Made by a program: the position numbers and the translations under genes. The notes under the pieces are model-generated. The model saw only the letters and a list, made by a program, of their open reading frames with translations, was not told where the DNA came from and ran no database searches. From a virus, in IMG/VR virus record IMGVR_UViG_3300029787_000290, positions 1 to 25,631 of that record: a stretch of DNA of 25,631 nucleotides, one strand, 5' to 3'. Every line of letters starts with the position of its first letter. Position 1 is the stretch's first letter. This document shows, one piece after another, positions 4,930-25,469 of this stretch.

Positions 4930-4934
4930 TACTT

Positions 4935-5822: not shown

Positions 5823-5836
5823 TTAGTTTCTCCTTG

Positions 5837-10220: not shown

Positions 10221-10221
10221 A

Positions 10222-12753: not shown

Positions 12754-12756
12754 TAT

Positions 12757-14348: not shown

Positions 14349-14395
14349 TCTTTATTTTCTCCTGCATTCTTGCTAGTCTTAGTTGCTCTTTTACT

Positions 14396-14767: not shown

Positions 14768-15189
14768 TTGCCGACAATCCAAGCTAATAATCCTCCAAAG
14801 AATAATACAAATATAAAAGCTATACTATAACCAAAATATTCCATTAACTCTGCTTGTCTTCTCTCTCTCATCTTCTCTTGATAACGTCTAGACTTTCTTG
14901 CTTCTGCTTGGAACTCTTGCCAATCCTGCCATAATCCGGGTCTACCTATGTATATCATCATCTTCTTGAGTTCTGCTTCTTTTTCTTTTATCTGCTCAAG
15001 AGCCATGAACTCTTCTAGGTCAGAACCACCACCTTTTGACTTTTGTTTACTTGCTTTCTTTTCTAACTGTTCTTTTGAAAACACAAAGTCAGATATGTGT
15101 TTAGCACAACCTGTAAGTTCCTTTCCGTTAGACACGAAACTTTTTATTACACTGAAAGCGGCATTTGCCGCAGCTAGTTCTGCTAACAT
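14749..15189 (-). CDS. Membrane-anchored protein of unknown function near lysis genes
   Basis: The protein has 146 aa. It begins MLAELAAANAAFSVIKSFVS, has a charged helical middle (EQLEKKASKQKSKGGG; MALEQIKEKEAELKKMM), then the motif IGRPGLWQDWQEFQAEARK and a single C-terminal membrane helix (about 119-141, IAFIFVLFFGGLLAWIVGKW). This family is common in marine phages close to holin genes. A cytoplasmic coiled domain with a tail anchor could serve lysis or membrane organisation, but no function is established. It is linked to its upstream neighbour by TAATG. Confidence 0.74.
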   Translation of the reverse strand: MLAELAAANAAFSVIKSFVSNGKELTGCAKHISDFVFSKEQLEKKASKQKSKGGGSDLEEFMALEQIKEKEAELKKMMIYIGRPGLWQDWQEFQAEARKSRRYQEKMRERRQAELMEYFGYSIAFIFVLFFGGLLAWIVGKWTGKL

Positions 15190-15371
15190 TATCTTTTCCT
15201 TCTTGGCTTACAATATGCTGTTATCTGTAGATTAGGTCCTTCCTGTTGTGGTATTGAAGGTTGCTTATGCAATCTCTCTGCGAAGTACAAACATCTATCT
15301 ATGTCTTCAAAGGTTTGTGTTTGGTCTACTACTCTTAATCCCATCATAAACACAAGCACAAACTCAATCAT
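15189..15371 (-). CDS. Small protein with hydrophobic N-terminus
   Basis: The protein has 60 aa. The first 12 residues (MIEFVLVFMMGL) form a short hydrophobic stretch, followed by DIDRCLYFAERLHKQ and ITAYCKPRRKR. Similar small proteins accompany lysis clusters in marine phages. The two Cys and hydrophobic start could fit a secreted or membrane-attached peptide. The stop and start are both in TAATG overlaps with neighbours. Function unknown. Confidence 0.68.
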   Translation of the reverse strand: MIEFVLVFMMGLRVVDQTQTFEDIDRCLYFAERLHKQPSIPQQEGPNLQITAYCKPRRKR

Positions 15372-15481
15372 TATACAGGTACTCCTTGTACCTCCTCTTC
15401 TTTTTCATCGTGGCAATCACAGTTGCATTCATCGCAGTCACATTCATAACACTTACAAGTGTCGCACTTTTCTTTATCCAC
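15371..15481 (-). CDS. Cysteine-rich 36-aa metallothionein-like mini-protein
   Basis: The frame opens at a GTG (15481) that overlaps the previous stop by 8 bases, with AGGTGG about 8 bases upstream, and ends in TAATG shared with the next ATG. It exactly fills an otherwise empty gap of about 100 bases. The product has eight Cys in 18 residues: CDTCKCYECDCDECNCDCHD, then a Glu-rich tail EKEEEVQGVPV. The spacing CxxCxCxxCxCxxCxCxC is that of metal-thiolate proteins, so binding of Zn, Cu or Cd is likely. Metallothionein function is inference; a zinc-storing or redox role in the phage cycle is open. Confidence 0.7.
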   Translation of the reverse strand: MDKEKCDTCKCYECDCDECNCDCHDEKEEEVQGVPV

Positions 15482-15665
15482 GATATCCACCACCTGCTGA
15501 CTTATATGCTTTAGCCATCATCTGTGCCTTACGTGCTGACCATTGACCCGGAGCACCACCTTTACCACCTGCTTTTATTCTGTTAAATATTCTTTTACGT
15601 AGTTCAGGTTTAGTATAGTTACCTGCTTTGTTTACTGTGCTTTTGCTTTTTCTTTTTACTGCCAT
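15474..15665 (-). CDS. Small basic protein (AGNYTKPxLRKRIFNRIK family)
   Basis: The protein has 63 aa, very basic, with the recognisable signature AGNYTKPELRKRIFNRIKAG and GQWSARKAQMMAKAYKSAGG followed by GYRG. This is a widespread small family of marine phages and some bacteria. No catalytic motif is visible; nucleic-acid binding is suggested by the charge. It overlaps the upstream 234-aa gene by 47 bases and the cysteine-rich gene by 8. Confidence 0.76.
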   Translation of the reverse strand: MAVKRKSKSTVNKAGNYTKPELRKRIFNRIKAGGKGGAPGQWSARKAQMMAKAYKSAGGGYRG

Positions 15666-16323
15666 TAGTATCCTCGTATAGATTATTAAATGTGGTGAAA
15701 GGGTCTAGGTAGGATTCGTGTGACTCTGCTGAGTGAGTCCACTGTGAGGGTGTAAAATCAGGAGCACCTTCTCCTGTTACCCATAATGCAGGACTTGTTG
15801 CTCTAACTCTGTTATTAGGTAGTGCGACAATATTACCTGTCCACTTACCTGCATTCAACAAATACATTACATGTGATTGTTTATGTTGTGCAGGGTCATC
15901 TGCTATATCATGGTCTGTATAATCTACAGTAAACATATATCTAGCAGTATAGAACTCATTAGCTATCTTGCATATCCACGGAGAAGAACTAACTCTATCC
16001 ATAACTATAACACTATGGTTTCTAGATTCACAATCCCAAGGTTGACACAGATGGTCTTCCATTGGTTCTGCCCACTCATCTACAGGTATATCAGCCACTA
16101 GTGCTTGTATTGGCATTCTTGCCCACATTGCACCACCATGTACATTCTCTTCTTCTGTACATCCTGTGAAAACTACCTGAAAACTTAGTGACCTGTCAGG
16201 TATAGTATTAACTGCAAAAGCTAATGCGTGTAGGTATTCACCATGATAATCCATATGATTACAAGTGAACTCCTTACGTACCCAACATTTAAAATGTGGT
16301 ACGTTACTTATAAGATAAGACAT
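15619..16323 (-). CDS. Conserved marine-phage protein of unknown function (MSYLISNVPHFKCWVRKE)
   Basis: The protein has 234 aa. It opens with ISNVPHFKCWVRKEFTCNH, then YHGEYLHALAFAVNTIPDRS and LSFQVVFTGCTEE. The middle is rich in aromatic, His and Asp residues (MARMPIQALV-like segment; CQPWDCESRNHSVIVMDR). The C-terminal tail is disordered and basic (NGSKKKKQKHSKQSR). I know this family from marine phages near lysis or late hypothetical genes but not its function. The start is in a TAATG overlap with the upstream gene. Confidence 0.75.
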   Translation of the reverse strand: MSYLISNVPHFKCWVRKEFTCNHMDYHGEYLHALAFAVNTIPDRSLSFQVVFTGCTEEENVHGGAMWARMPIQALVADIPVDEWAEPMEDHLCQPWDCESRNHSVIVMDRVSSSPWICKIANEFYTARYMFTVDYTDHDIADDPAQHKQSHVMYLLNAGKWTGNIVALPNNRVRATSPALWVTGEGAPDFTPSQWTHSAESHESYLDPFTTFNNLYEDTNGSKKKKQKHSKQSR

Positions 16324-16655
16324 TATCTACGTCTAGCGGCTCCACCACGAGACATCATCTTTGTCTTCTTTTTCATTCCACCTTTAGCCATGTACTTTGT
16401 TTTCTTCATGCCACCTTTAGCCATGTATTTAGTTTTCTTTTTCATCATTCCACCTTTCATTGCCAAAGCTCTAGGCTTTGTTACACGTATTTTTTTATCC
16501 GTGGGTTTTTTCCTAGGCATCTTTTTTACAAAGAACTCCCTAATCATTCTTTCACCCTCTTCACCCGGATACTTTTTTAGAATCTTCTCACGTTCTCTTT
16601 TCATGTAGGATTCAAACTCTTTAATAGATTTTTTATTATCCATCTCTTTTGCCAT
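16323..16655 (-). CDS. Basic protein with C-terminal KTKYMAKGGM repeats
   Basis: The protein has 110 aa. Residues 1-65 are charged helices (IKEFESYMKREREKILKKY; GEEGERMIREFFVKKM). From about residue 70 it has repeats of KKKTKYMAKGGM, with two near-identical copies and two degenerate ones, ending SRGGAARRR. Lys/Gly/Met repeats of this kind occur at the ends of several marine phage proteins. A nucleic-acid or membrane-surface interaction is possible; function unknown. It is next to the lysine-rich 291-aa gene with a one-base gap. Confidence 0.7.
   Translation of the reverse strand: MAKEMDNKKSIKEFESYMKREREKILKKYPGEEGERMIREFFVKKMPRKKPTDKKIRVTKPRALAMKGGMMKKKTKYMAKGGMKKTKYMAKGGMKKKTKMMSRGGAARRR
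16378..16427. repeat. 33-bp-period coding tandem repeat
   Basis: The 17-bp string CCACCTTTAGCCATGTA occurs at 16378-16394 and 16411-16427, 33 bp apart, with a diverged third copy near 16450. It encodes the YMAKGGM unit of the 110-aa protein. The near-identity of the DNA suggests recent duplication or slippage. Confidence 0.75.
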
Positions 16656-16656
16656 G

Positions 16657-17532
16657 TTATTTACCTTTCTTTTTCTTTTTCATCATGTCTAATACTATCA
16701 TGACCATACCACCTTTACGATAGTCCATATTATTTATCTTAGGTTTCTTAGTCATGCCACCACCATACATATAACCCATCTTGTTACGTACTTGAGTAGG
16801 TAGTTTTCTTAGACCTGTTTGGTCAGCACTAGGCATTTTTAACCCCATACCACCTTGAGCCTTACTATTCTTAGCTCTTAGCTTTTTTAGTCTTTCTGCT
16901 AATTCTTTTGCAGTTAAACCTTTTTTTGCACCCCCTATAGAATCAGCAGGATTTTTAGGTTTAATATTTAACATAGCTTTTGTAAGATTTTTATTCTTTG
17001 CTAAATTAGCATCTCCTCTTCTGAGCATAGCATCTCTAACTTTAGCTTGTGCATCTACAAAGTCTCTATATTGATTTTGTGTATACTTACCTGATTTAAT
17101 TTTATCATACAAGTCTTTAACTTTATCTGCTGCTTTATCAAAACCTTTAGCAGGTCCTGCAGCTAAAAGCATTTGTTGTTTACCCTTGAAGTTACCTTCA
17201 GCTTTGTCAGCAAACAATCTATTTATTTTGCCTTTTTGGTCTTGACCTATATTTTTCTTTACCTTCTCTAGTCTTTTAATTCTAGGAGTGTCTAGCTTCT
17301 TTGCATCTTTTGCATCTCCCCTAGCAGGTCTAGCAGCTTTCTTCTCTGCAGCCATCTTAGGCGAACTAGCTTTCTTATCAGCCTTGTCTGCCTTTTTCTT
17401 ATCAGCTTCATCAGCTTTCTTCTTAACTTCTTCAAACTTCTTAGATTTAGTTTTTCCTTTAACTTCTCTAGTTCTGTCTTTTAAAGTTCTTTTTCTTCTA
17501 GTTATTTTAGATAATAAACTTGCTACTGCCAT
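16657..17532 (-). CDS. Lysine-rich protein of unknown function
   Basis: The protein has 291 aa. The N-terminus MAVASLLSKITRRKRTLKDR leads into a Lys/Ala/Asp block (about 35-65, repeated KKADEADKK and KADKADKK). A helical middle (AKGFDKAADKVKDLYDKIKS; DFVDAQAKVRDAM) and a Gly/Met/Lys C-terminus ending MKKKKKGK follow. The repeated KADKADKK resembles histone H1-like tails. No membrane segment or enzyme motif is seen. It may be related to the 232-aa protein at 12055-12753. DNA or RNA binding is inferred from charge only. Confidence 0.7.
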   Translation of the reverse strand: MAVASLLSKITRRKRTLKDRTREVKGKTKSKKFEEVKKKADEADKKKADKADKKASSPKMAAEKKAARPARGDAKDAKKLDTPRIKRLEKVKKNIGQDQKGKINRLFADKAEGNFKGKQQMLLAAGPAKGFDKAADKVKDLYDKIKSGKYTQNQYRDFVDAQAKVRDAMLRRGDANLAKNKNLTKAMLNIKPKNPADSIGGAKKGLTAKELAERLKKLRAKNSKAQGGMGLKMPSADQTGLRKLPTQVRNKMGYMYGGGMTKKPKINNMDYRKGGMVMIVLDMMKKKKKGK

Positions 17533-17536
17533 TTTA

Positions 17537-18085
17537 CTATCCCTTCTTTTTTAATTTATTGAGATAGTCTTTAAGAGACATACCTTTTAGTTCAGACTTA
17601 GTAACTGTGCTGTACTTCTTTCCTTTGTAAGTAAAGAACTTTCCTGTACCTAATTTTTTTCTAGCAGCACGAAAGGCAGCACCAAAAGAAGAAAACTTCT
17701 CTGTCTTCTTTGCAGGTGGCTTTGCACCTAAAGCACTCTTAGTTATATTTTTAGTTGTGGGAGCTTGACCTGTTGGTCTATTTCTTGCACCTAATGAACT
17801 CTTCTTAATAGTTCCTTTAGGAGCTTTTGGTGTTTTAGAATAATCTACCGAAGGATTCAGTCTAGATTTAGACTTCTGCATTCTTTTGCTTTTACCTGAT
17901 ATGGGTAATGCAGCAAGTTTGCTTGTTGGCTTTTTCTTAGCACGTGTTCTAACAATATCCTTTTCAGGACCCATTGTTTTCTTCTTAGCTAACTCTCTTT
18001 GTTTAGCTCTTTTCTTTTGTTGTGCGAGTATACGTTTTCTTTTTTCAAGATACGACTCATTCTTTGGTACTATTTTAATAGGCAT
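17537..18085 (-). CDS. Basic protein with C-terminal FGxAFRxARKKLGxGxFFxYKGKxY motif
   Basis: The protein has 182 aa and is strongly basic. The first two-thirds are low-complexity (Lys, Arg, Ser, Pro; repeated K-SxLGA units at about 96 and 118). The last 50 residues hold FGAAFRAARKKLGTGKFF and YKGKKYSTVTK, a small domain recurring at the C-termini of marine phage proteins. The order, disordered basic linker and then small globular domain, suggests a virion or nucleic-acid-associated protein. Function is not known. The gene abuts its neighbour upstream without a gap. Confidence 0.7.
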   Translation of the reverse strand: MPIKIVPKNESYLEKRKRILAQQKKRAKQRELAKKKTMGPEKDIVRTRAKKKPTSKLAALPISGKSKRMQKSKSRLNPSVDYSKTPKAPKGTIKKSSLGARNRPTGQAPTTKNITKSALGAKPPAKKTEKFSSFGAAFRAARKKLGTGKFFTYKGKKYSTVTKSELKGMSLKDYLNKLKKKG

Positions 18086-18391
18086 TTAACATCTCCATCT
18101 TTTTCTAGCTTGTCTTAATCGGCTATTCGGGTCTTTTGCAGCTTTAGGGAATTTTTTCATCTGACCTGCACTTCTAGCACAGTAAGACTTTCGCCTATTG
18201 GCTCTAGTTTTAGATGGACTCTTTTCTGTTACTGCTGTTTTTAGCTTACTGCCCGGGTTTTGCCTTTTATATTTAGCGACACCTTTTTTGGTCATCCCTG
18301 CACCAGTCTTAGTGGGTCGCATATCTCCACTCTTTTGAGTGAATCCTTTTAGTCCTCCACGTTTTGTGGGTTTCTTTCTTTTTTCTGCCAT
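18086..18391 (-). CDS. Conserved basic phage protein (SYCARSAGQMKKFPKAAKDP family)
   Basis: The protein has 101 aa. It has the hallmark GMTKKGVAKYKRQNPGSKLK and then SYCARSAGQMKKFPKAAKDP and SRLRQARKRWRC, which is strikingly constant in a family found in many aquatic phages. It is highly basic, with two Cys (one at the very end). The conserved Arg/Lys-rich core suggests nucleic-acid binding, but I know of no demonstrated function. It overlaps the upstream 84-aa gene by 43 bases. Confidence 0.8.
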   Translation of the reverse strand: MAEKRKKPTKRGGLKGFTQKSGDMRPTKTGAGMTKKGVAKYKRQNPGSKLKTAVTEKSPSKTRANRRKSYCARSAGQMKKFPKAAKDPNSRLRQARKRWRC

Positions 18392-18603
18392 GTTGTGTTT
18401 ATCTTACCTTCTAGGTCTTTTTCAACTTTCATACATTTGTATTTGACAGCTTCATAATTAGGCATATGTTCTGGTAATTCTGCTGCTATTTCATAAGCAC
18501 GTGTTATACATTGCTTTTTATTATTGTATGGTCCATATTCATCAACTAAAGTGTGGCACAATGGACTTCCTATGGCACATACGAGTACCCATGTCTCAAA
18601 CAT
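18349..18603 (-). CDS. Small protein with hydrophobic N-terminus and four Cys
   Basis: The protein has 84 aa. A short hydrophobic start (FETWVLVCAIGSPLC) is followed by DEYGPYNNKKQCITRAYEIA and MPNYEAVKYKCMKVE. The four Cys fall at positions that could form disulfides, and the N-terminal stretch could be an export or anchor signal. The family occurs as small hypothetical proteins in marine phages. The ATG overlaps the upstream stop by 8 bases. Function unknown. Confidence 0.66.
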   Translation of the reverse strand: MFETWVLVCAIGSPLCHTLVDEYGPYNNKKQCITRAYEIAAELPEHMPNYEAVKYKCMKVEKDLEGKINTTWQKKERNPQNVED

Positions 18604-18808
18604 CGTCTAACATCCCTTCATGTTTCATTGCATTCTCTACGTGCTTGAGTGTATAACGAACACCTGTATCTGCCTCAATGGCAGCACGTACATAAAACAC
18701 GGAACTATGAGGAATATGTAGGTCTTTTAGTTTGTTACTACGAACAGCATCATAAAATGCATCGAGCATATTCTCTGGTACATATAGTTTTACTGATTTT
18801 TTAGGCAT
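18596..18808 (-). CDS. First leftward gene; small hypothetical protein
   Basis: The product is 70 aa from ATG 18808 (a TTG two codons upstream is in frame). It contains KSVKLYVPENMLDAFYDAV and AAIEADTGVRYTLKHVENAM, probably two helical pieces around a short linker. It might be a small DNA-binding or regulatory protein, but no HTH is clear. No Shine-Dalgarno sequence is visible before the ATG, unlike most genes here. It is the first gene downstream of the leftward promoters and operator repeats at 18858-18958, so it is read first of the whole leftward block. Confidence 0.66.
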   Translation of the reverse strand: MPKKSVKLYVPENMLDAFYDAVRSNKLKDLHIPHSSVFYVRAAIEADTGVRYTLKHVENAMKHEGMLDDV

Positions 18809-18857
18809 TGTCAAGCACGAAATTAAATTAACTTACGGAGGCTTCTATTCTTTAGTA

Positions 18858-18928
18858 CATTTAAGTGTATCATATAAGTGTTTTTTATATATTAAGTTAT
18901 TATACATTTAAGTGTTTCATTTAAGTGT
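18858..18928. promoter_or_regulatory. Four operator-like repeats CATTTAAGTGT in two pairs
   Basis: CATTTAAGTGT occurs at 18858-18868, 18905-18915 and 18918-18928; CATATAAGTGT lies at 18871-18881. Within each pair the starts are 13 bp apart, and the pairs are 47 bp apart. With flanks the unit reads TACATTTAAGTGTA, close to a palindrome. The right-most copy covers the expected start site (about 18923) of the promoter at 18930-18958, so binding there would block leftward transcription. A related inverted ACACTTAA lies at 19052-19059. Confidence 0.65.
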
Positions 18929-18929
18929 A

Positions 18930-18958
18930 GTTATACCCCCACTCGGCATTTTTGTCAA
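18930..18958 (-). promoter_or_regulatory. Sigma70-like promoter of the leftward block
   Basis: On the minus strand TTGACA (18958-18953) is followed after 17 bp by TATAAC (18935-18930). The transcript would begin near 18923, within the operator-like repeats, about 115 nt before the first ATG. It is the proximal of two leftward promoters. Confidence 0.7.
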
Positions 18959-18983
18959 GAGCATTTTTTTCTACTCTTGTACG

Positions 18984-19012
18984 ATTATACCATACTTGTG
19001 ATATTAATGCAA
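18984..19012 (-). promoter_or_regulatory. Second, upstream leftward promoter
   Basis: On the minus strand TTGCAT (19012-19007), a 17-bp spacer ending in TGG, and TATAAT (18989-18984) make a good extended -10 promoter. It lies about 54 bp upstream of the first and would transcribe through it and the operator repeats. Confidence 0.6.
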
Positions 19013-19025
19013 CACTATTTATTAT
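18996..19025 (+). promoter_or_regulatory. Possible rightward promoter
   Basis: TTGTGA (18996-19001) and TATTAT (19020-19025) are separated by 18 bp. A start near 19032 would give a rightward transcript with a leader of about 475 nt carrying all the hairpins before the first gene. It overlaps the -35 of the upstream leftward promoter, so the two would compete. Confidence 0.3.
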
Positions 19026-19148
19026 ATATGTGTCAGTTACCCCTGTGGTTAACACTTAATTTTCCCCATCTGTGTAGATATTCATGCATACGTACCCCAT
19101 ACCCCCACCTGACCCATGCCCACCCCCCTGTCTGTTGTGTGTTTTGAG

Positions 19149-19189
19149 TGCGATATGTGTGTTTGATGTGCAGGAATATGCGATATGTG
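19149..19189. repeat. Direct repeat TGCGATATGTG, 30 bp apart
   Basis: TGCGATATGTG occurs at 19149-19159 and 19179-19189. The 30-bp spacing is about three helical turns, which would put bound proteins on one face of the DNA. It could be a regulator or replication-protein site. Confidence 0.5.
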
Positions 19190-19203
19190 GTGTATATGCA
19201 TTG

Positions 19204-19407
19204 ATTTTCTAAAGAAAATGTAGCAAATTCAATACTTTAGTATTGGTTGGAAACTCATTTACTATCAGTTGCCATGCTTTAGCATGAAAGACTGTGGTAT
19301 TTTTGCAACAAGCAGACTGTTGAAGAGGAGGAGTACAAAAAGGACTACCCCCCTAGGGTAGTATGGTCATTCCGATTGTCGGAAGCTCTAGATACTAAGA
19401 GTATCTA
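19204..19407 (+). other. Hairpin-filled leader of the rightward module
   Basis: Five perfect stem-loops besides the TTCCGA element lie here: 19204-19219 (7 bp), 19230-19245 (7 bp, CAATACT/AGTATTG), 19273-19286 (6 bp), 19344-19362 (7 bp, ACTACCC/GGGTAGT) and 19389-19407 (8 bp, TAGATACT/AGTATCTA). Loops are 2-5 nt. None has a following T-run, so they are not terminators. They look like the same class of element as those inside the genes downstream. Confidence 0.7.
19370..19384 (+). repeat. TTCCGA hairpin element, copy 1 (leader)
   Basis: TTCCGATTGTCGGAA: 6-bp stem, loop TTG. This copy lacks the usual ACC before and ACTTT after, and lies about 120 bp before the first rightward gene. Confidence 0.85.
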
Positions 19408-19416
19408 AAAGAATAC

Positions 19417-19446
19417 TTGACAGAAAGACTAAGGTTATAATATTTT
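19417..19446 (+). promoter_or_regulatory. Possible rightward promoter near first gene
   Basis: A perfect TTGACA (19417-19422) is followed by TATAAT after only 13 bp (19436-19441), too short for sigma70; TATTTT at 19441-19446 gives an 18-bp spacer. It could drive the rightward genes with a short leader, or be coincidental in AT-rich DNA. Confidence 0.35.
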
Positions 19447-19484
19447 AAAAACATCCCTTTATGGGTAAAATGTTTTTAAAATAT
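19440..19484 (+). promoter_or_regulatory. Long AT-rich hairpin before the first rightward gene
   Basis: A perfect 15-bp stem (ATATTTTAAAAACAT, 19440-19454, with its complement at 19470-19484) has an inner CCC/GGG stem in its apical part. It ends 10 bases before the AGGAG ribosome site of the gene at 19507. There is no T-run of the terminator kind; a 5' mRNA stabiliser or processing site is more likely. Confidence 0.75.
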
Positions 19485-19506
19485 ATATAACATAGGAGAA
19501 ACCAAC

Positions 19507-20118
19507 ATGGCTAAAAAACATTCCCTTCCAACTCAGTCAGAGCTAAAAGCTCAAGGTTCAAATCTAGCTAAGCTAGATGCTACAGAGACAAAGTCTCTCA
19601 AGGCTAAAACCACAAAGCTAGTTCATGACAAAGATAGTCTTGACTATCTACTTGGTCAGCTTCAAGTTAATATTCTCAAGATTGAGAATGTTAAGATAAT
19701 TAGCAAGGAACTTGCTAAGAAGTATGGAATTGCTTCTATTGAAGCAAGAAGAAGAAACGAATCAAAGATTCTGTTTCTAAAGTATGACGAAGTCATTGCT
19801 TGGCTAAAGTCTACTAGAAAGAGATATACTTCTCTTTCTGCTCTGCTCAAGGCATTTGCTAAAGCAAATAAGCCAAAGACAGAAGATAAGCCAAAGGCTT
19901 CTGATGAGACAAAGTCTCAAGAAGAGACAGAGTCTCAACCTTCCGACAGTTCGGAAACTAAAGAAGAACCAAAGGTTCAGAAGAAGCTAACAGCTTCTGA
20001 AGTAGCACTTGAAGTGCTAGTTCAACTAGAGATACATGGTATCTCACCAAAAGACTTTGCTAGAGAGTTTAACTCTCAGTACAAGGAACTTAAAGTTCCT
20101 TCACAGAAGGTAGCTTAA
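19507..20118 (+). CDS. 203-aa basic protein of unknown function; gene saturated with hairpins
   Basis: AGGAG lies 8 bases before the ATG. The protein is Lys/Ser/Glu-rich. Residues 1-65 are charged helical; about 60-115 form the most ordered part (KIISKELAKKYGIASIEARR; YDEVIAWLKSTRKRYTSLSA); 120-155 are a disordered acidic linker (ETKSQEETESQPSDSSETKE); the end is another short helical region (ASEVALEVLVQLEIHGISP). I do not recognise the family. The coding DNA holds 23 perfect short inverted repeats, many with loop AAA. A DNA-binding or structural early protein is possible, and the transcript itself may be a functional RNA. It is the first and probably most strongly expressed rightward gene. 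Confidence 0.75.
   Translation: MAKKHSLPTQSELKAQGSNLAKLDATETKSLKAKTTKLVHDKDSLDYLLGQLQVNILKIENVKIISKELAKKYGIASIEARRRNESKILFLKYDEVIAWLKSTRKRYTSLSALLKAFAKANKPKTEDKPKASDETKSQEETESQPSDSSETKEEPKVQKKLTASEVALEVLVQLEIHGISPKDFAREFNSQYKELKVPSQKVA
19941..19956 (+). repeat. TTCCGA hairpin element, copy 2 (inside a gene)
   Basis: TTCCGACAGTTCGGAA, 6-bp stem with 4-nt loop CAGT, lies in frame and encodes part of QPSDSSETK. The flanks ACC and ACT match the intergenic copies, so this is the same element carried within coding sequence, one base longer. Confidence 0.8.
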
Positions 20119-20127
20119 TGCTACCTT
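20107..20127 (+). terminator. Hairpin over the stop codon, followed by T-run
   Basis: AAGGTAGC (20107-20114) pairs with GCTACCTT (20120-20127); the loop TTAAT contains the TAA stop. The downstream TCTTTTT makes it resemble an intrinsic terminator, possibly partial, which would make the first gene the most abundant transcript of the module. Confidence 0.55.
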
Positions 20128-20132
20128 TCTTT

Positions 20133-20147
20133 TTAATCGGAGATTAA
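20133..20147 (+). promoter_or_regulatory. Ribosome-site hairpin of the 77-aa gene
   Basis: TTAATC and GATTAA form a 6-bp stem around loop GGA, which is the core of the Shine-Dalgarno sequence CGGAG, four bases before the ATG at 20151. The site is therefore held in or next to a hairpin loop. Confidence 0.7.
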
Positions 20148-20150
20148 TAT

Positions 20151-20384
20151 ATGGCTAAGATATTTAAAATTACAAAGAGTAATTTTGCTAAAAGAATAAA
20201 CCCTCATAAGAGGGTTCGTTCAAATTGGGTTGGTCATGAGAATGACCAAAAGAGATTAGAACCAATCATTTATGATTGTGGTGCTTTTGCTATCCAAAGA
20301 TTGAATCAAAAGTCTAAAGCACTTTTGGAGCATGAAGAAACTCTTCGAGTTTTACAAGAGTTTGAGGATTTATATAATAATTAA
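20151..20384 (+). CDS. 77-aa hypothetical protein
   Basis: The protein is basic at its N-terminus (MAKIFKITKSNFAKRINPHK), with YDCGAFAIQRLNQKSKALLE and a C-terminal helix HEETLRVLQEFEDLYNN. No known motif is recognised. The gene contains hairpins at AACCCTC/GAGGGTT, GGTCAT/ATGACC, CAATCAT/ATGATTG and AAACTC/GAGTTT. Its stop codon lies in the long AT-rich hairpin that follows. Ribosome site in a hairpin loop, see 20133-20147. Confidence 0.68.
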   Translation: MAKIFKITKSNFAKRINPHKRVRSNWVGHENDQKRLEPIIYDCGAFAIQRLNQKSKALLEHEETLRVLQEFEDLYNN

Positions 20385-20413
20385 ATATAGATATTTATGA
20401 TATATTTAATTAT
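20377..20413 (+). other. Long AT-rich hairpin over the stop of the 77-aa gene
   Basis: A perfect 13-bp stem (20377-20389 with 20401-20413) and an 11-nt loop cover the stop codon and sit just before the TTCCGA element. No terminator T-run follows. Confidence 0.75.
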
Positions 20414-20430
20414 ATATATTAACATTAACC

Positions 20431-20445
20431 TTCCGATTGTCGGAA
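20431..20445 (+). repeat. TTCCGA hairpin element, copy 3
   Basis: TTCCGATTGTCGGAA between the 77-aa and 63-aa genes, with ACC before and ACTTT after. The ribosome-site hairpin 20450-20460 (TTAC-GGA-GTAA) follows 4 bases later. Confidence 0.9.
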
Positions 20446-20449
20446 ACTT

Positions 20450-20460
20450 TTACGGAGTAA
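20450..20460 (+). promoter_or_regulatory. Ribosome-site hairpin of the 63-aa gene
   Basis: TTAC-GGA-GTAA places the Shine-Dalgarno core in a 3-nt loop of a 4-bp stem, four bases before the ATG at 20465. The stem alone is weak. Confidence 0.5.
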
Positions 20461-20464
20461 TATT

Positions 20465-20656
20465 ATGAAAATTACAAAAACTTCCCCTTTTAGTGGTAAC
20501 ACTAACGTCATGGAAATTGACGTAACTCAAGAGCAATTAAGCTCTTGGGAGAGTGGTGTTCTGATTCAGAATGCCATGCCGAATCTTTCGGCAGATGAAC
20601 GAGAGTTCATCATGACAGGGATTACCCCTGCCGAATGGGATAGTGCTTTTAATTAA
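20465..20656 (+). CDS. Conserved small marine-phage protein (MKITKTSPFSGNTNVMEIDV family)
   Basis: The protein has 63 aa: KITKTSPFSGNTNVMEIDVT, then EREFIMTGITPAEWDSAF. It belongs to a small family frequent in marine phage early regions, with conserved SPF.G..N.ME and REFI.TG..P.EW; function unknown to me. The 192-bp gene holds at least nine perfect hairpins, including TTAGTG/CACTAA, CAAGAGC/GCTCTTG, GCCGAA/TTCGGC and CAGGG/CCCTG. The last one (20642-20661, 7 bp) covers the stop codon. Confidence 0.78.
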   Translation: MKITKTSPFSGNTNVMEIDVTQEQLSSWESGVLIQNAMPNLSADEREFIMTGITPAEWDSAFN

Positions 20657-20670
20657 GCACTTCCCAAACC

Positions 20671-20685
20671 TTCCGATTGTCGGAA
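20671..20685 (+). repeat. TTCCGA hairpin element, copy 4
   Basis: TTCCGATTGTCGGAA with ACC before and ACTTT after, between the 63-aa and 72-aa genes. Confidence 0.9.
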
Positions 20686-20693
20686 ACTTTAAC

Positions 20694-20708
20694 TTAAACG
20701 GAGTTTAA
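20694..20708 (+). promoter_or_regulatory. Ribosome-site hairpin of the 72-aa membrane protein gene
   Basis: TTAAAC-GGA-GTTTAA: 6-bp stem with the Shine-Dalgarno core GGA(G) at the loop, directly before the ATG at 20710. It is the clearest example of the pattern. Confidence 0.7.
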
Positions 20709-20709
20709 A

Positions 20710-20928
20710 ATGAGCAAAAAGATTGATGGAATATTATTATTCCTTATAGGAATCCCTGTGTTTTTAATGGCATGGGTAACCCTTGGGGAAGCTGATGGGT
20801 ATTACATGAGCGAAGCTATAAACACCCCCTTCCCTTTAGGGATAACCTTCACAGTTCTTGTTGGAACTATGGGGTTGACTTTGTCAATAGCAGGATTATT
20901 AATAATTTTTAAATGGAGAAACGTATAA
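20710..20928 (+). CDS. 72-aa protein with two membrane helices
   Basis: The two hydrophobic segments are about residues 7-24 (ILLFLIGIPVFLMAWVTLG) and 46-68 (ITFTVLVGTMGLTLSIAGLL), joined by a loop with a few charges and ending in KWRNV. The topology is probably both ends inside. It is likely an inner-membrane protein acting early in infection; no family is recognised. Hairpins in the gene include GGAATA/TATTCC and ATTCC/GGAAT. Its stop overlaps the next ATG (TAATG). Confidence 0.72.
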   Translation: MSKKIDGILLFLIGIPVFLMAWVTLGEADGYYMSEAINTPFPLGITFTVLVGTMGLTLSIAGLLIIFKWRNV

Positions 20929-21059
20929 TGTATAAGAATACAAAAGCCAAAAGAAACTTTTGGGATGAACATGATAAACTAATTGCATCTATTGATGCAA
21001 AAAAGATATGTCAGAAGACATATACTAAAGCACGAATAACTTGCTACACAAAAGTATAA
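20928..21059 (+). CDS. 43-aa basic hypothetical protein
   Basis: This short gene is read from ATG 20928, which overlaps the previous stop by one base, to TAA at 21059. The product MYKNTKAKRNFWDEHDKLIA continues with SIDAKKICQKTYTKARITCY and TKV. It is basic with two Cys. Three perfect hairpins occupy much of it: CCAAAAG/CTTTTGG, TGCATC/GATGCA and ATATGTC/GACATAT. The TAATG coupling and position in a tightly packed operon support it; function unknown. Confidence 0.6.
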   Translation: MYKNTKAKRNFWDEHDKLIASIDAKKICQKTYTKARITCYTKV

Positions 21060-21096
21060 TTATTTATATATGAATATATATGAATATATAAATAAT
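21059..21096 (+). other. Long AT-rich hairpin after the 43-aa gene
   Basis: A 13-bp perfect stem (21059-21071 with 21084-21096) has a 12-nt loop. It starts at the last base of the stop codon and precedes the next TTCCGA element, in the same arrangement as at 20377-20413. Confidence 0.75.
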
Positions 21097-21105
21097 ATAT
21101 AAACC

Positions 21106-21120
21106 TTCCGATTGACGGAA
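21106..21120 (+). repeat. TTCCGA hairpin element, copy 5 (variant)
   Basis: TTCCGATTGACGGAA has one change in the stem, leaving TTCCG/CGGAA around a 5-nt loop. The flanks ACC and ACTTT are conserved. Confidence 0.85.
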
Positions 21121-21137
21121 ACTTTAATGGAGTTAAT

Positions 21138-21356
21138 ATGGCTAGACAGTATAAAAGAAAAATACCAAACATAACACATAATGGCATAATAAATGTATGG
21201 GATTATGTATCATTTGAAGATTATCCAAATGAGTATGGTAAAAGAATTTACTTAGATATATCATCATTAGTAGATTCAGCAGAACATGAATTACAAAGTA
21301 ATAAAAAATATAAAAACTTTGAAGTTGAATCTTATGGTGTGAAAAGGTGGGAGTAG
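21138..21356 (+). CDS. 72-aa hypothetical protein, gene without hairpins
   Basis: The protein is MARQYKRKIPNITHNGIINV followed by WDYVSFEDYPNEYGKRIYLD and a charged C-terminus. TGGAG lies five bases before the ATG. No family is recognised. This gene is more AT-rich than its neighbours and shows almost no short inverted repeats, making it the exception in the rightward module, perhaps a recent arrival. Confidence 0.66.
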   Translation: MARQYKRKIPNITHNGIINVWDYVSFEDYPNEYGKRIYLDISSLVDSAEHELQSNKKYKNFEVESYGVKRWE

Positions 21357-21360
21357 TAAT

Positions 21361-22074
21361 ATGCCGAATGGATATGTAATTTTTGATGGTGCTTCTCTTC
21401 TCAATGGAGAACGTATCATTGCTATCGCTTTGACAAGTGAATCTAAAAATGCCAAGACAGGTGCTATGATGCAGACTTACATCATCACACCCCATGACCC
21501 AAGGGAAGCCTCTAAGTATGGCTTAGATGAAGCTAACTGTGGTCAATGTCCTCATAGAGGAACACCGACTAATGACCCCAATCGTAAACAAGCTATTGGT
21601 AGAACTTGCTATGTCAAGTTATATCAAGGGGTACTTGTTACTTGGAAACAATGGATGAAGGGTGCTTACCCTTCCTTGCAAGGACATGATGCCTTGGCTT
21701 CTCTTGGAGAAGATGAAGACGTAAGGATTGGAACTTATGGAGATGGTGGAGCAGTACCCAAATATATTTGGGATAGCTTGATATCAAAAGCTAGGAAGCA
21801 TACTGCATATTGTCATCAATATGACAATCCAAGTTCTAGCTTTGACCCTACCATTTACATGGTATCGGCTGATAACTTAGCTACTGCTAAGACTCATTGG
21901 GATTTTGGACATAGAACATTCCGTGTCATTCAAGATGTCAACGAAGTTGTCAAGGGTCAAGAGATACTTTGTCCTGCCTCAAAAGAGATGGGCAGACGAG
22001 TACAATGCTCATCATGTATGTTATGTGGTGGGTCACAAGTCAATGCCAAGAGCATTGCAATCGTTCAACATTAA
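21361..22074 (+). CDS. 237-aa protein with Cys clusters, unknown function
   Basis: The protein begins MPNGYVIFDGASLLNGERII and has CGQCPHRG (about 60), RTCYVKLYQGVLVTWKQW (about 81-98), and a C-terminal CPASKEMGRRVQCSSC followed by MLCGG. The CxxC and CxxCxxCGG groups suggest a zinc- or Fe-S-binding protein. Proteins of this type are common in marine phages as hypothetical genes. The gene holds many hairpins, the best being ATTGTCAT/ATGACAAT (8 bp, near 21811), CTTCTC/GAGAAG, AAGGGT/ACCCTT, TACCAT/ATGGTA and CTTAGC/GCTAAG. Confidence 0.78.
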   Translation: MPNGYVIFDGASLLNGERIIAIALTSESKNAKTGAMMQTYIITPHDPREASKYGLDEANCGQCPHRGTPTNDPNRKQAIGRTCYVKLYQGVLVTWKQWMKGAYPSLQGHDALASLGEDEDVRIGTYGDGGAVPKYIWDSLISKARKHTAYCHQYDNPSSSFDPTIYMVSADNLATAKTHWDFGHRTFRVIQDVNEVVKGQEILCPASKEMGRRVQCSSCMLCGGSQVNAKSIAIVQH

Positions 22075-22076
22075 CC

Positions 22077-22091
22077 TTCCGACAATCGGAA
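22077..22091 (+). repeat. TTCCGA hairpin element, copy 6 (inverted loop)
   Basis: TTCCGACAATCGGAA has loop CAA, the reverse complement of TTG, while the flanks ACC and ACTTT keep their orientation. It lies between the 237-aa and 134-aa genes. Confidence 0.9.
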
Positions 22092-22094
22092 ACT

Positions 22095-22111
22095 TTAAAC
22101 TAGGAGTTTAA
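22095..22111 (+). promoter_or_regulatory. Ribosome-site hairpin of the 134-aa gene
   Basis: TTAAAC-TAGGA-GTTTAA: 6-bp stem with TAGGA, most of the Shine-Dalgarno sequence, in the loop; the ATG is one base beyond the stem. Confidence 0.7.
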
Positions 22112-22112
22112 T

Positions 22113-22517
22113 ATGGAAAAAGTTAGAGTATATTGGAACTTACACAGAAGATGTTGGAGTATCCAAAATGTCAAGAGTGGTCTAGTAATAGACCATAGAT
22201 ATGACATAACCCTTGAACAAGCAAAGTTTGTTGTTCGTAAGGGTGGGCAGAAGCGAGTACGTGAAGAAGGCAAGAAGAATGTTCATGCCTTTGCAGTAGG
22301 ATATATTGCTGAAGAGCAAGATATTGATAACTCGGCTTACCATCATAAGGTATCTTATAATCCTTATAAGAATGACTTCTTCATGAGGAGTAGCACAGAA
22401 CTAGGTTCTGATGAAGTATCAAGAGACTTCGTAGGGAATATTCGCATGGAGTCTGAGATGAAGATATTATCCAATGCTATAATATGGGGTGGGGTTCATC
22501 CTAGAGTATACATATAA
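22113..22517 (+). CDS. 134-aa conserved phage protein of unknown function
   Basis: The N-terminal part, VRVYWNLHRRCWSIQNVKSG with EQAKFVVRKGGQKRVREEGK and KNVHAFAVGYI, resembles a small family found in many phages; the C-terminal half (ISYNPYKNDFFMRS-like, here VSYNPYKNDFFMRS) reads as a second module. It is basic at first, without membrane segments. Hairpins include GGTCTA/TAGACC, TCTTATA/TATAAGA and CAGAAC/GTTCTG. Function unknown. Confidence 0.75.
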   Translation: MEKVRVYWNLHRRCWSIQNVKSGLVIDHRYDITLEQAKFVVRKGGQKRVREEGKKNVHAFAVGYIAEEQDIDNSAYHHKVSYNPYKNDFFMRSSTELGSDEVSRDFVGNIRMESEMKILSNAIIWGGVHPRVYI

Positions 22518-22529
22518 TCAACAGAATAA

Positions 22530-22571
22530 GTTATATAACTACTTGACTTTCAATGAAAGTAGTTATATAAC
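22530..22571 (+). other. 15-bp perfect hairpin between genes
   Basis: GTTATATAACTACTT (22530-22544) pairs fully with 22557-22571 around a 12-nt loop that itself can form CTTTC/GAAAG. It is the most stable-looking element of the module and lies just upstream of a GGAG ribosome site. No T-run follows, so it is not an ordinary terminator. Confidence 0.78.
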
Positions 22572-22589
22572 ATATATATGGAGTTCGAC

Positions 22590-22796
22590 ATGACAATTTT
22601 AGATACAGTAAAAATCAAAAACTTACTTGATGATTTAGTTAATGCTAAATCTATAAGCATAGATGACTTTCATTTTACCATAGGCAAGATGAATTACGAA
22701 GTTGAAACATTAGTAGTACAAACTTCCATTCCTCATCATGAGGCTATGGTTAGAGTCAAAGATAATAACAACAAGTATTACGTAGTAAAGGTGTAA
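22590..22796 (+). CDS. 68-aa hypothetical protein
   Basis: The start ATG 22590 (MTILDTVKIKNLLDDLVNAK) is preferred over ATG 22578 because GGAG at 22580-22583 lies 6 bases before it and would be inside the gene otherwise. The protein is mixed alpha/beta, ending VRVKDNNNKYYVVKV. No motif is known. Hairpins include GATTTAG/CTAAATC and CCTCAT/ATGAGG. Confidence 0.66.
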   Translation: MTILDTVKIKNLLDDLVNAKSISIDDFHFTIGKMNYEVETLVVQTSIPHHEAMVRVKDNNNKYYVVKV

Positions 22797-22797
22797 C

Positions 22798-22929
22798 ATG
22801 AAGATTAAAAAGATAAATCCTATAGCAAAAGCATTGCTTTCCATACGGAAGCAAGTAGTACCTTCAAAGAAAGGTAAGGGTTCATACAACAGAAAAAAGG
22901 AGAATATAATTGCGAAGCAAGTACGATGA
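22798..22929 (+). CDS. 43-aa basic protein (NPIAKxLLxxRxKxxVxxSKKxxxxYxRKK type)
   Basis: This short gene starts one base after the previous stop. The product MKIKKINPIAKALLSIRKQV continues VPSKKGKGSYNRKKENIIAK and QVR. The pattern NP.AK.L....K..V..SKK..Y.RK is one I know from small basic proteins of many phages. It is probably nucleic-acid-associated; function not known. It overlaps the next gene by 20 bases. Confidence 0.68.
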   Translation: MKIKKINPIAKALLSIRKQVVPSKKGKGSYNRKKENIIAKQVR

Positions 22930-23053
22930 ACAAACGTTTGAGAAGATATCTGTCAAGAAAACAATCAAGAAGCAGAAGCGAGATGATTGGAAGAAAGAAC
23001 GCAGATTACAACGCAAACAAAAGAATGCTAGGCAAGAGAAGTCTTTTGCCTAG
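22910..23053 (+). CDS. 47-aa highly charged protein, TTG start
   Basis: AAAAAGGAG lies 7 bases before TTG 22910. The product (M)RSKYDEQTFEKISVKKTIKK continues QKRDDWKKERRLQRKQKNAR and QEKSFA. I prefer it to the longer frame at 22926-23111, because that frame would run through the TTCCGA element, which elsewhere lies between a stop codon and the next ribosome site. The stop codon closes a hairpin (23028-23053, CTAGGCAA/TTGCCTAG plus inner pairs). It is a basic coiled helix; function unknown. Confidence 0.62.
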   Translation: MRSKYDEQTFEKISVKKTIKKQKRDDWKKERRLQRKQKNARQEKSFA

Positions 23054-23058
23054 ATACC

Positions 23059-23073
23059 TTCCGACAATCGGAA
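23059..23073 (+). repeat. TTCCGA hairpin element, copy 7 (inverted loop)
   Basis: TTCCGACAATCGGAA with loop CAA; ACC before and ACTT after. It lies five bases past the stop of the 47-aa gene and before the AAAGGAG ribosome site of the 125-aa gene, which has no ribosome-site hairpin. Confidence 0.88.
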
Positions 23074-23107
23074 ACTTACTTAACCAACAACAAAAGGAGA
23101 TTTTATT

Positions 23108-23485
23108 ATGAGTAAGAAAAATATCAACGTAGCCTATTGGGTACAGTCCACAGGTGTTACAGGTCAATGCTTAACTGAGAGAGGTCAAAAGTTATTTGAC
23201 ACTACCTCTGCTCTGTATCATCAAGTTACAGGCGAGAAGCTATCTAAGATGAAACTATATGATATAGTTCTTAGTGAGTGCAGAGAGACTAAAAAGTCTG
23301 ATGGTTTCTATATTAGAAACATATCAACTGCAGGTTTCATGGTAGCCATGCAGGACTTAGCCTCAATATGCAGAGCATACCTCAAGGATAGAGAGTACAA
23401 GTCTATATCCTTCGGACAGTTCAAGGTTGGTAAGTTACACAACCTAGCTAGAGGTAAGGTTGGTAGAAAAGGGAAGGTAGCATAA
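23108..23485 (+). CDS. 125-aa hypothetical protein
   Basis: The protein is mostly helical and basic: VTGQCLTERGQKLFDTTSAL, KLYDIVLSECRETKKSDGF, and AMQDLASICRAYLKDREYKS, ending in a Lys/Arg-rich tail (LARGKVGRKGKVA). It has an AAAGGAG ribosome site and three Cys. No family is recognised. Hairpins GTTTCTA/TAGAAAC and CATGG/CCATG lie within it. It may bind nucleic acid, by charge only. Confidence 0.68.
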   Translation: MSKKNINVAYWVQSTGVTGQCLTERGQKLFDTTSALYHQVTGEKLSKMKLYDIVLSECRETKKSDGFYIRNISTAGFMVAMQDLASICRAYLKDREYKSISFGQFKVGKLHNLARGKVGRKGKVA

Positions 23486-23487
23486 GA

Positions 23488-23676
23488 GTGGCTACTCGCT
23501 GTTACGAATGCAATGGTACGAACCTATGGAGTTTAATGTGGGTTCGTGCCAACCCTTTAGCTATCGTTCTAGAGCCACACTATGACACCGAACCTTATAC
23601 CAAAGGTATGAATGAGTATCACAAATGTGATGATTGTAATAAACAAGTTCAAGTAAAGGAGATTGAAGATGCTTAA
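23488..23676 (+). CDS. 62-aa zinc-ribbon-like protein
   Basis: It starts at GTG 23488, three bases after the previous stop. The protein has CYEC near the N-terminus and CDDC near residue 48, 40-odd residues apart, the layout of a zinc ribbon (CxxC...CxxC). The middle contains LEPHYDTEPYTKGMNEYHKC. A DNA, RNA or protein-binding zinc module is likely. The end overlaps the next gene by 8 bases. Hairpins at ATACC/GGTAT and ATCACA/TGTGAT. Confidence 0.7.
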   Translation: MATRCYECNGTNLWSLMWVRANPLAIVLEPHYDTEPYTKGMNEYHKCDDCNKQVQVKEIEDA

Positions 23677-23887
23677 CAAAGTTAGCACACTTCCAAATCG
23701 TAGTACATATCCTAAACCCTTTTGGGTTGTAGGTATATCTATTGATGGAAACAAAGGTAAAGTAAATGTACATCCACAGGCATTAGAAAAGAGTGGATAC
23801 AATTATGCTATTGACCATGCCATTGATATGGCAAGGTCAGTATATCCAAAATCAAGAATAGAATTTTTATTTATAGAGGAGTATTAA
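23669..23887 (+). CDS. 72-aa hypothetical protein
   Basis: ATG 23669 has AAAGGAG seven bases upstream; an in-frame TTG two codons earlier is less likely. The product MLNKVSTLPNRSTYPKPFWV continues VGISIDGNKGKVNVHPQALE and ends EFLFIEEY. It is a small alpha/beta protein without known motifs. It overlaps the zinc-ribbon gene by 8 bases and is followed by the coiled-coil gene one base later. Confidence 0.66.
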   Translation: MLNKVSTLPNRSTYPKPFWVVGISIDGNKGKVNVHPQALEKSGYNYAIDHAIDMARSVYPKSRIEFLFIEEY

Positions 23888-23888
23888 T

Positions 23889-24530
23889 ATGAAGATACAC
23901 AGAGTAGTTACAATGCTAGGTGCTACAACTACCACAGGTAGACTAGCTAGTGATATGTATGACTTGAATGACAAGACATACTATTCAGAAGCAGAAGGTA
24001 GAGATATACCTATCTCACACATGGACTTTCAGCATATGGTCAGAGCATTTGTAAAACAAAATGAGGAAACAGACAATGACTTTAGTAGGTCAATGAAGTT
24101 ACGTAATCATTTACAAGAAGAAAATGAAAATCTTGAAATGAAGAATGAGAAGCTGAAAGAAAACTTGCAGAAGCAAGAAGATAACTTACTATATCTTACG
24201 AGCAAGATTGAAAACATGAAAGGTATCATTGAGGAGAAAGATGATTTGTTAGATAAACAAACTGCCAATACAGAGTATTGGAAAAACATATACTACAACA
24301 ATCAACCTCAAGGATGTGGCTATGTATTCAGCGAGATACCCAATGATGAGTATGGCAAGAAGCTAACAAGAGGTATGAAAGTATATCTCAATAACGAGTC
24401 ATACTCTATGAGAGTACGTGGACAACACATTAAGCCTGAACTCAAAGGTACAGGTGCTACCTATTGGGGTCAGTCCATAGAACAATCAACACACCTTAGA
24501 GTGTACATAGACAAAAAGAAAGGAGCATAA
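23889..24530 (+). CDS. 213-aa coiled-coil protein
   Basis: Residues 1-60 form a small folded part (MLGATTTTGRLASDMYDLND; FQHMVRAFVKQNEE). Residues 75-135 are a strong coiled coil (LQEENENLEMKNEKLKENLQ; IENMKGIIEEKDDLLDKQ). The C-terminal part (about 140-213) has SEIPNDEYGKKLTRGMKVYL and RVYIDKKKGA. It is probably an oligomeric early protein; no family is recognised. Hairpins include CTACC/GGTAG, CTTGC/GCAAG and TACTCT/AGAGTA. Confidence 0.7.
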   Translation: MKIHRVVTMLGATTTTGRLASDMYDLNDKTYYSEAEGRDIPISHMDFQHMVRAFVKQNEETDNDFSRSMKLRNHLQEENENLEMKNEKLKENLQKQEDNLLYLTSKIENMKGIIEEKDDLLDKQTANTEYWKNIYYNNQPQGCGYVFSEIPNDEYGKKLTRGMKVYLNNESYSMRVRGQHIKPELKGTGATYWGQSIEQSTHLRVYIDKKKGA

Positions 24531-24532
24531 TC

Positions 24533-25381
24533 ATGCCATTAGACGGAACACCAAATCTATTTAAGTTAACAGAAGAACTTAACTTTGAATTATCCTATGA
24601 GGATAGTAAGTTAAGTGGACATAAGTTTGGATTCAATATGAATACAGGCGAAGCCATTAGTCATACAAGAAATACATTTAACTGTGTGTCTCATCCTACC
24701 TTTTTTAACTCTGTTAAAAATGTTATCATGGATAATAGAGAACCACATGAGTTGCTTAATGCAAAGGTCAAGCAGAAAACCTGTAGGAATAATGCTTGGG
24801 CAATGGTAGATATTACATTACCAAATGTAACCTATCGTATCTATACAGACAAGCATCATACAGACATCAGCGAAAGGATTATCCTTTTACATGGTGTTGA
24901 TGGTTCATGTTCTAATGTGGCATTGTTTGGTGGGATAGATATGTACTGCACCAATGGTCAGATTAGGGGTAAGTATGACAAGGTCAAGAAAAAGAATACA
25001 AGTGGTTTCAGTATTGAAACATTTGTGAGTGAGTTGCAAACTGCTAAAGCAGACTTTGATGCTCATTGTAAGATGCTTCAGATATGGGCAGAGACACCTA
25101 TCAAAGCTAATGTAAGATTACTTCTTGACAAGATTGTAAAATCTGAGAGAGTATCTAAGAAGATGAATGAGATTGCTAGGCAAGAGATTGCAAAGCGAGG
25201 TAAGAATATGTATGCTTTGTATTCTGCATTCACTAACTACTCATCTTATGCAGATGGTAGAAATGGATTTGCCTTAAAGAATACAGGCAATGACACAAGG
25301 GGAGAGTCTATGTGGAAGCGAGAGCAACAGGTATCTCAATGGATAGATTCCAAACCTTTCCAAGATTTATTGGTGGCTTAG
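24533..25381 (+). CDS. DUF932-like phage/plasmid protein
   Basis: The protein has 282 aa. The middle segment NVALFGGIDMYCTNGQIRGK and the later ALYSAFTNYSSYADG region match the DUF932 family (phage/plasmid-like protein, TIGR03299 group) as I know it: a conserved R.VCTNG-like strand followed by a helical C-terminus with N..Y.A.Tw..S. The family has no settled function; it is often near DNA metabolism genes. AAAGGAG precedes the ATG. Hairpins occur throughout, the best TTTTTAAC/GTTAAAAA (8 bp, near 24701) and AAAGGAT/ATCCTTT. Confidence 0.78.
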   Translation: MPLDGTPNLFKLTEELNFELSYEDSKLSGHKFGFNMNTGEAISHTRNTFNCVSHPTFFNSVKNVIMDNREPHELLNAKVKQKTCRNNAWAMVDITLPNVTYRIYTDKHHTDISERIILLHGVDGSCSNVALFGGIDMYCTNGQIRGKYDKVKKKNTSGFSIETFVSELQTAKADFDAHCKMLQIWAETPIKANVRLLLDKIVKSERVSKKMNEIARQEIAKRGKNMYALYSAFTNYSSYADGRNGFALKNTGNDTRGESMWKREQQVSQWIDSKPFQDLLVA

Positions 25382-25468: not shown

Positions 25469-25469
25469 T

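Follow-up and report, generated by a model that had tools for sequence, protein, structure and literature searches.

The window analysed here, the whole 25,631-nt stretch of IMG/VR virus record IMGVR_UViG_3300029787_000290, carries a dense array of short hairpins that starts at about 19204, adjoining a conserved block between two divergent operons, passes through leader, genes and gaps alike, and fades along some 5 kb of the early operon, which runs rightward. We propose, with confidence that stops somewhat short of an even chance, that the first ~5 kb of this operon have been selected to fold as a dense chain of hairpins in the sense RNA, which would shield the early mRNA. Folding of the RNA in vivo and its shielding effect are what we infer from computed properties of the locus: the array itself, its boundaries, gradient and recurrence, compensatory evolution and a lower predicted single-strandedness.

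Hairpin content of the early operon

Sequence comparison places the window, as a genome fragment, among the HMO-2011-type marine podoviruses: its terminase, portal and coat are 79%, 75% and 73% identical to those of HMO-2011; a conserved divergent gene is 57% identical. The layout is likewise of the HMO-2011 type, with the late operon running leftward and the early operon rightward. In the rightward operon, which we call early from its gene order and content, the ORF at 19507-20118 is the first gene recognised. A ferredoxin-like auxiliary gene (PHROG 3704) lies at 15619-16323 in the leftward operon.

The first-pass annotation had singled out ORF 19507-20118 as built largely of hairpins, and its unusual richness was borne out. 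Using stems of at least 5 bp and loops of 2-6 nt, we found 21 perfect inverted repeats that do not overlap and that together take up 339 of 609 nt (56%), whereas 300 synonymous shuffles that kept the protein and the codon use gave a mean of 6.5 and never more than 12. Longer stems widened the difference: 15 hairpins were found against about 2.9 (maximum 7) in the synonymous shuffles for stems of at least 6 and loops of 2-8, 11 against 1.0 for stems of at least 7, and 5 against 0.3 for stems of at least 8. The coordinates of the annotated example hairpins were all correct. The count of 23 that accompanied them drops to 21 when overlapping repeats are counted once, while the statement that more than half of the bases are covered stands; the loop AAA, reported at least seven times, occurs six times by the non-overlapping count. 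As the annotation had argued, the pattern is not a protein repeat, since stems begin at each of the three codon positions and their number exceeds that of the synonymous shuffle. The predicted minimum free energy of the ORF was -211.2 kcal/mol compared with -146.9 (sd 6.9) in synonymous shuffles (z -9.4). In the predicted fold, unpaired runs of at least 8 nt numbered 2 against 8.0 when shuffled, and pairing was local, with a median pair span of 15 nt against 30 nt. Predicted folds of this kind, with the loop lengths and sense-strand loop signatures described below, are consistent with the "beads on a string" mRNA that had been suggested. At the level of sequence, the roles put forward with it (nuclease resistance, an RNase III substrate, a decoy RNA or recognition by a phage protein) would all look alike.

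What did not hold was the idea of one peculiar gene, as the array spans the promoter-proximal kilobases of the whole early operon, in related and unrelated phages. Positions 19190-22500 are dense throughout, with 57 hairpins against 3.9 when shuffled (loops of 3-6 nt), and 22500-25600 forms a weaker, fading part (+ strand; 19 against 3.5, 6.1/kb, 5.4-fold). The leftward late genes at 600-18400 are near background (38 against 21.6, only 1.8-fold). Within the early operon, the per-gene excess over synonymous shuffles was greatest in the first genes (Table 1). Both the excess over synonymous shuffles and the near-background late operon lend support to shielding. A single odd gene or a protein repeat is ruled out as an explanation, given that leader, gaps and downstream genes are also hairpin-rich and all codon phases are used, and a composition artefact is ruled out by synonymous, codon-order and Markov shuffles.

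Table 1. Features of the divergent junction and early operon in the window.
Feature	Position	Strand	Remarks
Divergent 72-aa gene, conserved	18596..18814	-	Anchor for early junctions in other phages
Conserved intergenic block between divergent late and early operons	19023..19129		C-rich on + strand; 74.5% identical to non-coding HMO-2011 53535-53640
Untranslated early leader	19204..19407	+	Six hairpins of stem 6-8
First early ORF	19507..20118	+	203 aa, pI 9.5; 21 perfect hairpins
8-bp hairpin	20107..20127	+	Spans stop codon of first early ORF
Hairpin with Shine-Dalgarno in loop	20133..20147	+	GGA|G; directly before ATG 20151
77-aa ORF	20151..20384	+	6 hairpins (26/kb) vs 1.2 in synonymous shuffles
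Repeated intergenic hairpin TTCCGA-N3-TCGGAA	20431..20445	+	6 matches, 0.00 expected by chance
63-aa ORF	20465..20656	+	4 hairpins vs 0.5 shuffled
237-aa ORF (phrog_2554)	21361..22074	+	11 hairpins vs 1.6 shuffled
134-aa ORF (L5 gp82 family)	22113..22517	+	4 hairpins vs 1.1 shuffled

A few elements of the region recur. The arrangement with a Shine-Dalgarno sequence in the loop is also present at 20694-20708 and 22095-22111, again directly before a start codon. Other copies of TTCCGA-N3-TCGGAA are found at 19370, 20671, 21106 (1 mismatch), 22077 and 23059, and the copies sit 15-125 nt upstream of early start codons. The conserved intergenic block is probably early promoter or regulatory DNA; a scan for sigma-70-like promoters around it returned matches at chance level. 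At 18857-18930 and 19040-19125, the divergent intergenic region holds imperfect palindromic repeats similar to ACATTTAAGTGT together with the C-rich block (TACCCC/ACCCCC) conserved with HMO-2011, and these could be an operator, promoter or origin. Terminator-like sites, defined as a G+C-rich stem followed by a T run, number only 3 on the + strand between 18600 and 25600, where about 80 hairpins lie, showing that the array does not consist of intrinsic terminators. Overall, such sites are in excess across 18600-25600 (19 against 3.6), and 16 of the 19 are antisense to early genes, which perhaps merely reflects the A-rich sense strand. Rfam 15 gave 0 matches at gathering score over the window.

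Recurrence among related and unrelated phages

HMO-2011, CRP-1 and CRP-345 show the same hairpin peak where the early region begins, and dozens of metagenomic relatives share the early gradient. The peak is absent from CRP-2, CRP-603, CRP-207, CRP-3, CRP-212, CRP-738 and HTVC033P. A host-determined trait is unlikely, as CRP-1, with the array, and CRP-2, without it, share the host FZCC0023. Using the conserved 72-aa divergent gene as an anchor that introduces no bias, we gathered 119 non-redundant early junctions. Hairpin density in the 30 densest reaches its maximum, 22-24/kb, some 1-1.4 kb away from this anchor and then declines smoothly to 4/kb by 5 kb; intermediate junctions have a gradient of the same shape and lower height, and the late side of the relatives averages 1.66 hairpins/kb over 375 kb. 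Comparing the density of a given gene with its distance from the promoter gave a mixed outcome, with small numbers. The L5 gp82 family was ruled out as a linked gene because it is found in many phages without hairpin-rich loci.

The one-sided start beside the divergent intergenic region, with a peak and then a fall by 5 kb, supports the shielding explanation. A one-sided array near the operon start that includes the untranslated leader would also be in line with an effect on transcription processivity, in which nascent hairpins block Rho loading, RNA polymerase backtracking or R-loops on a long early operon made of many tiny genes and gaps, and the finished mRNA is not the protected target. 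The loops are compact and fast-folding and they avoid C, which fits this alternative as well; however, linker C is just mildly low (0.181 against 0.210 for G), and in relatives the operon continues for about 17 kb, well past the 5 kb by which the hairpins have faded. We consider processivity an unlikely basis for the array.

The array is not restricted to relatives of the window. A 64-kb contig (G001/L056) encodes another kind of DNA polymerase (PHROG 1252), lacks PolA and has nothing that matches the window's terminase. Its second to seventh kb hold 15, 17, 11, 8, 10 and 5 hairpins/kb, and it is near background elsewhere. This contig and contig L057 share with the window's group the 3-nt loop optimum and the C-G loop closure. 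The same uncultured 64-kb phage (G001, L345-L348) carries a 4237-aa gene at 29901-42614 whose sole PHROG match is of unknown function. The early regions of T7 and SIO1 had no hairpin excess over shuffles. In N4 (L353 1-4000), a 4-fold excess (16 against 4) lacked the 3-nt loop optimum, and the terminal region of Vibrio phage VpV262 (L070 44800-46012) held 11 hairpins against 0.6 when shuffled.

The product of the first early gene offers another candidate for a role in the array. Its predicted structure (203 aa, mean pLDDT 77) consists of a helical N-domain (residues 1-122), a disordered linker and two C-terminal helices. There was no match in PHROGs and no sequence match in the PDB, and the best Pfam hit (E 0.026) fell below the cut-off. 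Structural comparison with the PDB gave no match with E<1 by Foldseek and none above Z 2.8 by VIA-align, and BFVD returned one match only (S4S2E1, E 9e-7), a 205-aa protein of the same length as HMO-2011 gp74. The hairpins could be an array of sites bound by an RNA-binding protein of the phage, perhaps this product itself, a member of the P0001 family. The gene heads the operon and encodes a basic protein (N-domain pI 10.0), and across the 119 non-redundant junctions hairpins outside the gene have a density of 8.7/kb where a P0001 member is present and 4.1/kb where none is (p=3e-11). This association is not phylogenetically independent, however, with few supported pairs and a median sign-test p of 0.125. 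A P0001 subfamily (L099, L101, L102 and others) occurs without the array, and no P0001 member was detected in L086, L135, L145 or in the unrelated G001 and L057, all of which have the array; these exceptions in both directions rule out the family as a strict requirement. Moreover, no known RNA-binding protein matches the product in structure, and the absence of a consensus in stems or loops, as far as the sequences tell, speaks against a single sequence-specific binder. A protein-binding array thus seems quite unlikely.

The strand likely to fold and the evolution of the hairpins

The loop-length excess is 17-fold at 3 nt and 11-fold at 4 nt and is nearly gone by 7-8 nt, a profile to be expected if one strand folds. 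Several signatures distinguish the strands. GNRA tetraloops number 37 on the sense strand (10.9 expected) and 10 on the antisense strand (6.8 expected; p=0.016), and C is depleted in loops (0.086, linkers 0.181) while G is not (0.197, linkers 0.210). Among stems with one opposition, G-T (31, 8 expected) outnumbers A-C (13, 8 expected), and low-hairpin loci show a G-T over A-C bias similar to that of high loci. Two further comparisons favour neither strand and, like the G-T bias of low-hairpin loci, weaken the sense-RNA reading: the folding-energy excess differs little by strand (-7.6 against -7.1), and changes between relatives in the non-redundant set show no asymmetry (G-T 119, A-C 125). For ORF 19507-20118, the folding-energy z was -9.4 for the sense and -7.2 for the antisense strand. 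Sense RNA is most likely the folded substrate, although not proven; we favour it because of the loop lengths, the sense GNRA excess, the C-poor loops, the scarcity of long unpaired runs and the one-sided operon gradient.

Folding at the DNA level, as cruciforms or single-stranded folds serving DNA entry, replication or N4-like virion RNA polymerase promoters, would also account for near-perfect Watson-Crick stems, which are alike on both strands. The predominance of C-G over G-C loop closure (154 against 21) and the GNA triloops resemble stable DNA hairpins, and N4 promoter hairpins also have 3-base loops (PMC4496689). Yet N4 requires its G..A loop on the template strand, while in this array it is the sense strand that has more GNA loops (GAA 34 against 12, GGA 25 against 2). 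The sense-strand GNRA loops, the C-poor loops and the one-sided start at the operon also weigh against DNA folding, as do tens of hairpins within genes with no shared sequence, and a scan of the large virion genes found no match to an RNA polymerase family. We regard DNA-level hairpins as improbable.

The hairpins evolve in a manner consistent with selection on pairing. When each was compared once with its closest non-redundant relative (n=568), 246 were unchanged, 53 had changed but were fully re-paired, 30 had G-U changes only and 239 were broken. Where both members of a pair had changed, complementarity was kept in 127 of 193 cases (66%) compared with 815 of 2220 control pairs (37%; p=3e-16). 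Substitution rates, from pairs that are not independent, were 0.048/site in stems and 0.085 in linkers at 85-95% identity, and 0.014 and 0.036 at 95-99.9%. Ten homologues of ORF 19507-20118, down to 56% DNA identity, retain 20-31 hairpins/kb, with most individual stems differing. Compensation, slower stems and a density maintained despite turnover of stems indicate selection on pairing and mostly on density; from these alignments, the conserved quantity is mainly hairpin density, plus partial compensation, rather than individual elements. The compensatory changes that the first-pass annotation had proposed to look for in relatives are thus present, but many single hairpins have been lost or replaced and the compensation is partial. 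Neither of the two outcomes that it had named as refuting, a similar hairpin number after synonymous shuffling or stems broken without compensation, was obtained.

Fast turnover of individual hairpins is also what a mutational by-product would produce, in which template switching during replication perfects imperfect palindromes without any function; template switching could, in addition, slow the divergence of stems and create paired changes. We find such an origin highly improbable. It sits poorly with the boundary at the divergent intergenic region, the gradient along the operon and the near-absence of hairpins in the rest of the genome, and with loops of 3-4 nt that carry a sense-strand bias. 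Amino-acid order also appears to be bent to the hairpins (synonymous shuffle 2.97, codon-order shuffle 1.28).

Proposed shielding of early mRNA and comparison with known systems

If the shielding explanation is right, early sense RNA would fold into local hairpins of 6-9 bp with loops of 3-4 nt across leader, coding and intergenic sequence, so that the first transcripts in the cell would expose few single-stranded stretches. These transcripts would then be shielded from host factors that require single-stranded RNA, such as endoribonucleases, Rho and RNA-directed defence, until phage products take over, and the fading with promoter distance would reflect that RNA near the 5' end is the earliest to be made and stays exposed for the longest time. 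Passive shielding is favoured because the predicted sense RNA of dense loci has fewer unpaired runs of at least 8 nt (9.1/kb against 13.8 when shuffled), a reduction not seen in low loci or on late sides. Counting against it, ribosomes unwind hairpins in translated RNA, and CRP-2, a close relative on the host of CRP-1, manages without the array. The threat to early mRNA has a precedent in T4, in which RNase E is the driver of early mRNA decay and RNase LS cleaves RNA on the 3' side of pyrimidines where it is single-stranded (PMC3014915).

More tentatively still, several dsDNA phage groups may armour their first transcripts. Unrelated podoviruses would then have converged on a gradient of tiny hairpins near the early promoter, with selection on the bulk structure of the RNA within coding sequence; such armour would work passively, whatever its sequence, against RNA decay or termination by the host or against immunity that targets RNA. 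Armouring of transcripts, if true, would be a structural layer of phage host takeover that has not been described before, and shielding would amount to a strategy of takeover or defence evasion invisible to gene annotation in the widespread HMO-2011-type marine phages. The data point to strong, measurable selection for RNA structure within protein-coding genes of DNA phages, at the place where infection starts. The cultured carriers CRP-1, CRP-345 and HMO-2011, together with the same-host non-carrier CRP-2, make these ideas directly testable, and the array provides a simple signature, readable from sequence, by which to find early operons in contigs of uncultured phages.

We found no description of an early hairpin gradient in phages in the open-licence literature, including the papers on HMO-2011-type isolates. 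The hairpins of lambda nut/boxB and HK022 put RNA also lie in early transcripts. These are few antitermination elements of defined sequence, whereas the array comprises dozens of hairpins without a consensus, inside genes. The N4 virion RNA polymerase promoters are similar in their short stems, 3-base loops, C-G closing pair, GNA-type loops and location in a podovirus early region, and in N4 the closing pair and the loop G and A are needed for extrusion (PMC4496689). N4, however, has three early promoters of conserved sequence with the active loop on the template strand (PMC4496689), in contrast to tens of unrelated hairpins that lie mostly inside genes, with a GNA excess on the sense strand; for the giant virion RNA polymerase gene, a scan of the large genes at family level gave no RNA polymerase match. 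In T4 infection, single-strand-acting nucleases likewise attack phage mRNA (RNase E, RegB and RNase LS), but RNase LS is countered by the protein Dmd and not by structured coding sequence (PMC3014915). A further likeness is one of bulk structure, in that folding energy beyond shuffles (z -9.4) is a property of the whole and not of single elements. The genome-scale ordered RNA structure (GORS) of RNA viruses is such a property, a widespread, sequence-order-dependent folding in coding sequence that extends over the whole genome. Here, by contrast, the genome is that of a dsDNA phage, and the structure is graded, made of many tiny perfect hairpins and confined to about 5 kb of the early operon. 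Structured coding RNA is a known kind of feature in viruses; in the open-licence literature searched, no DNA phage was found described whose early operon carries a gradient of hairpins close to the promoter.
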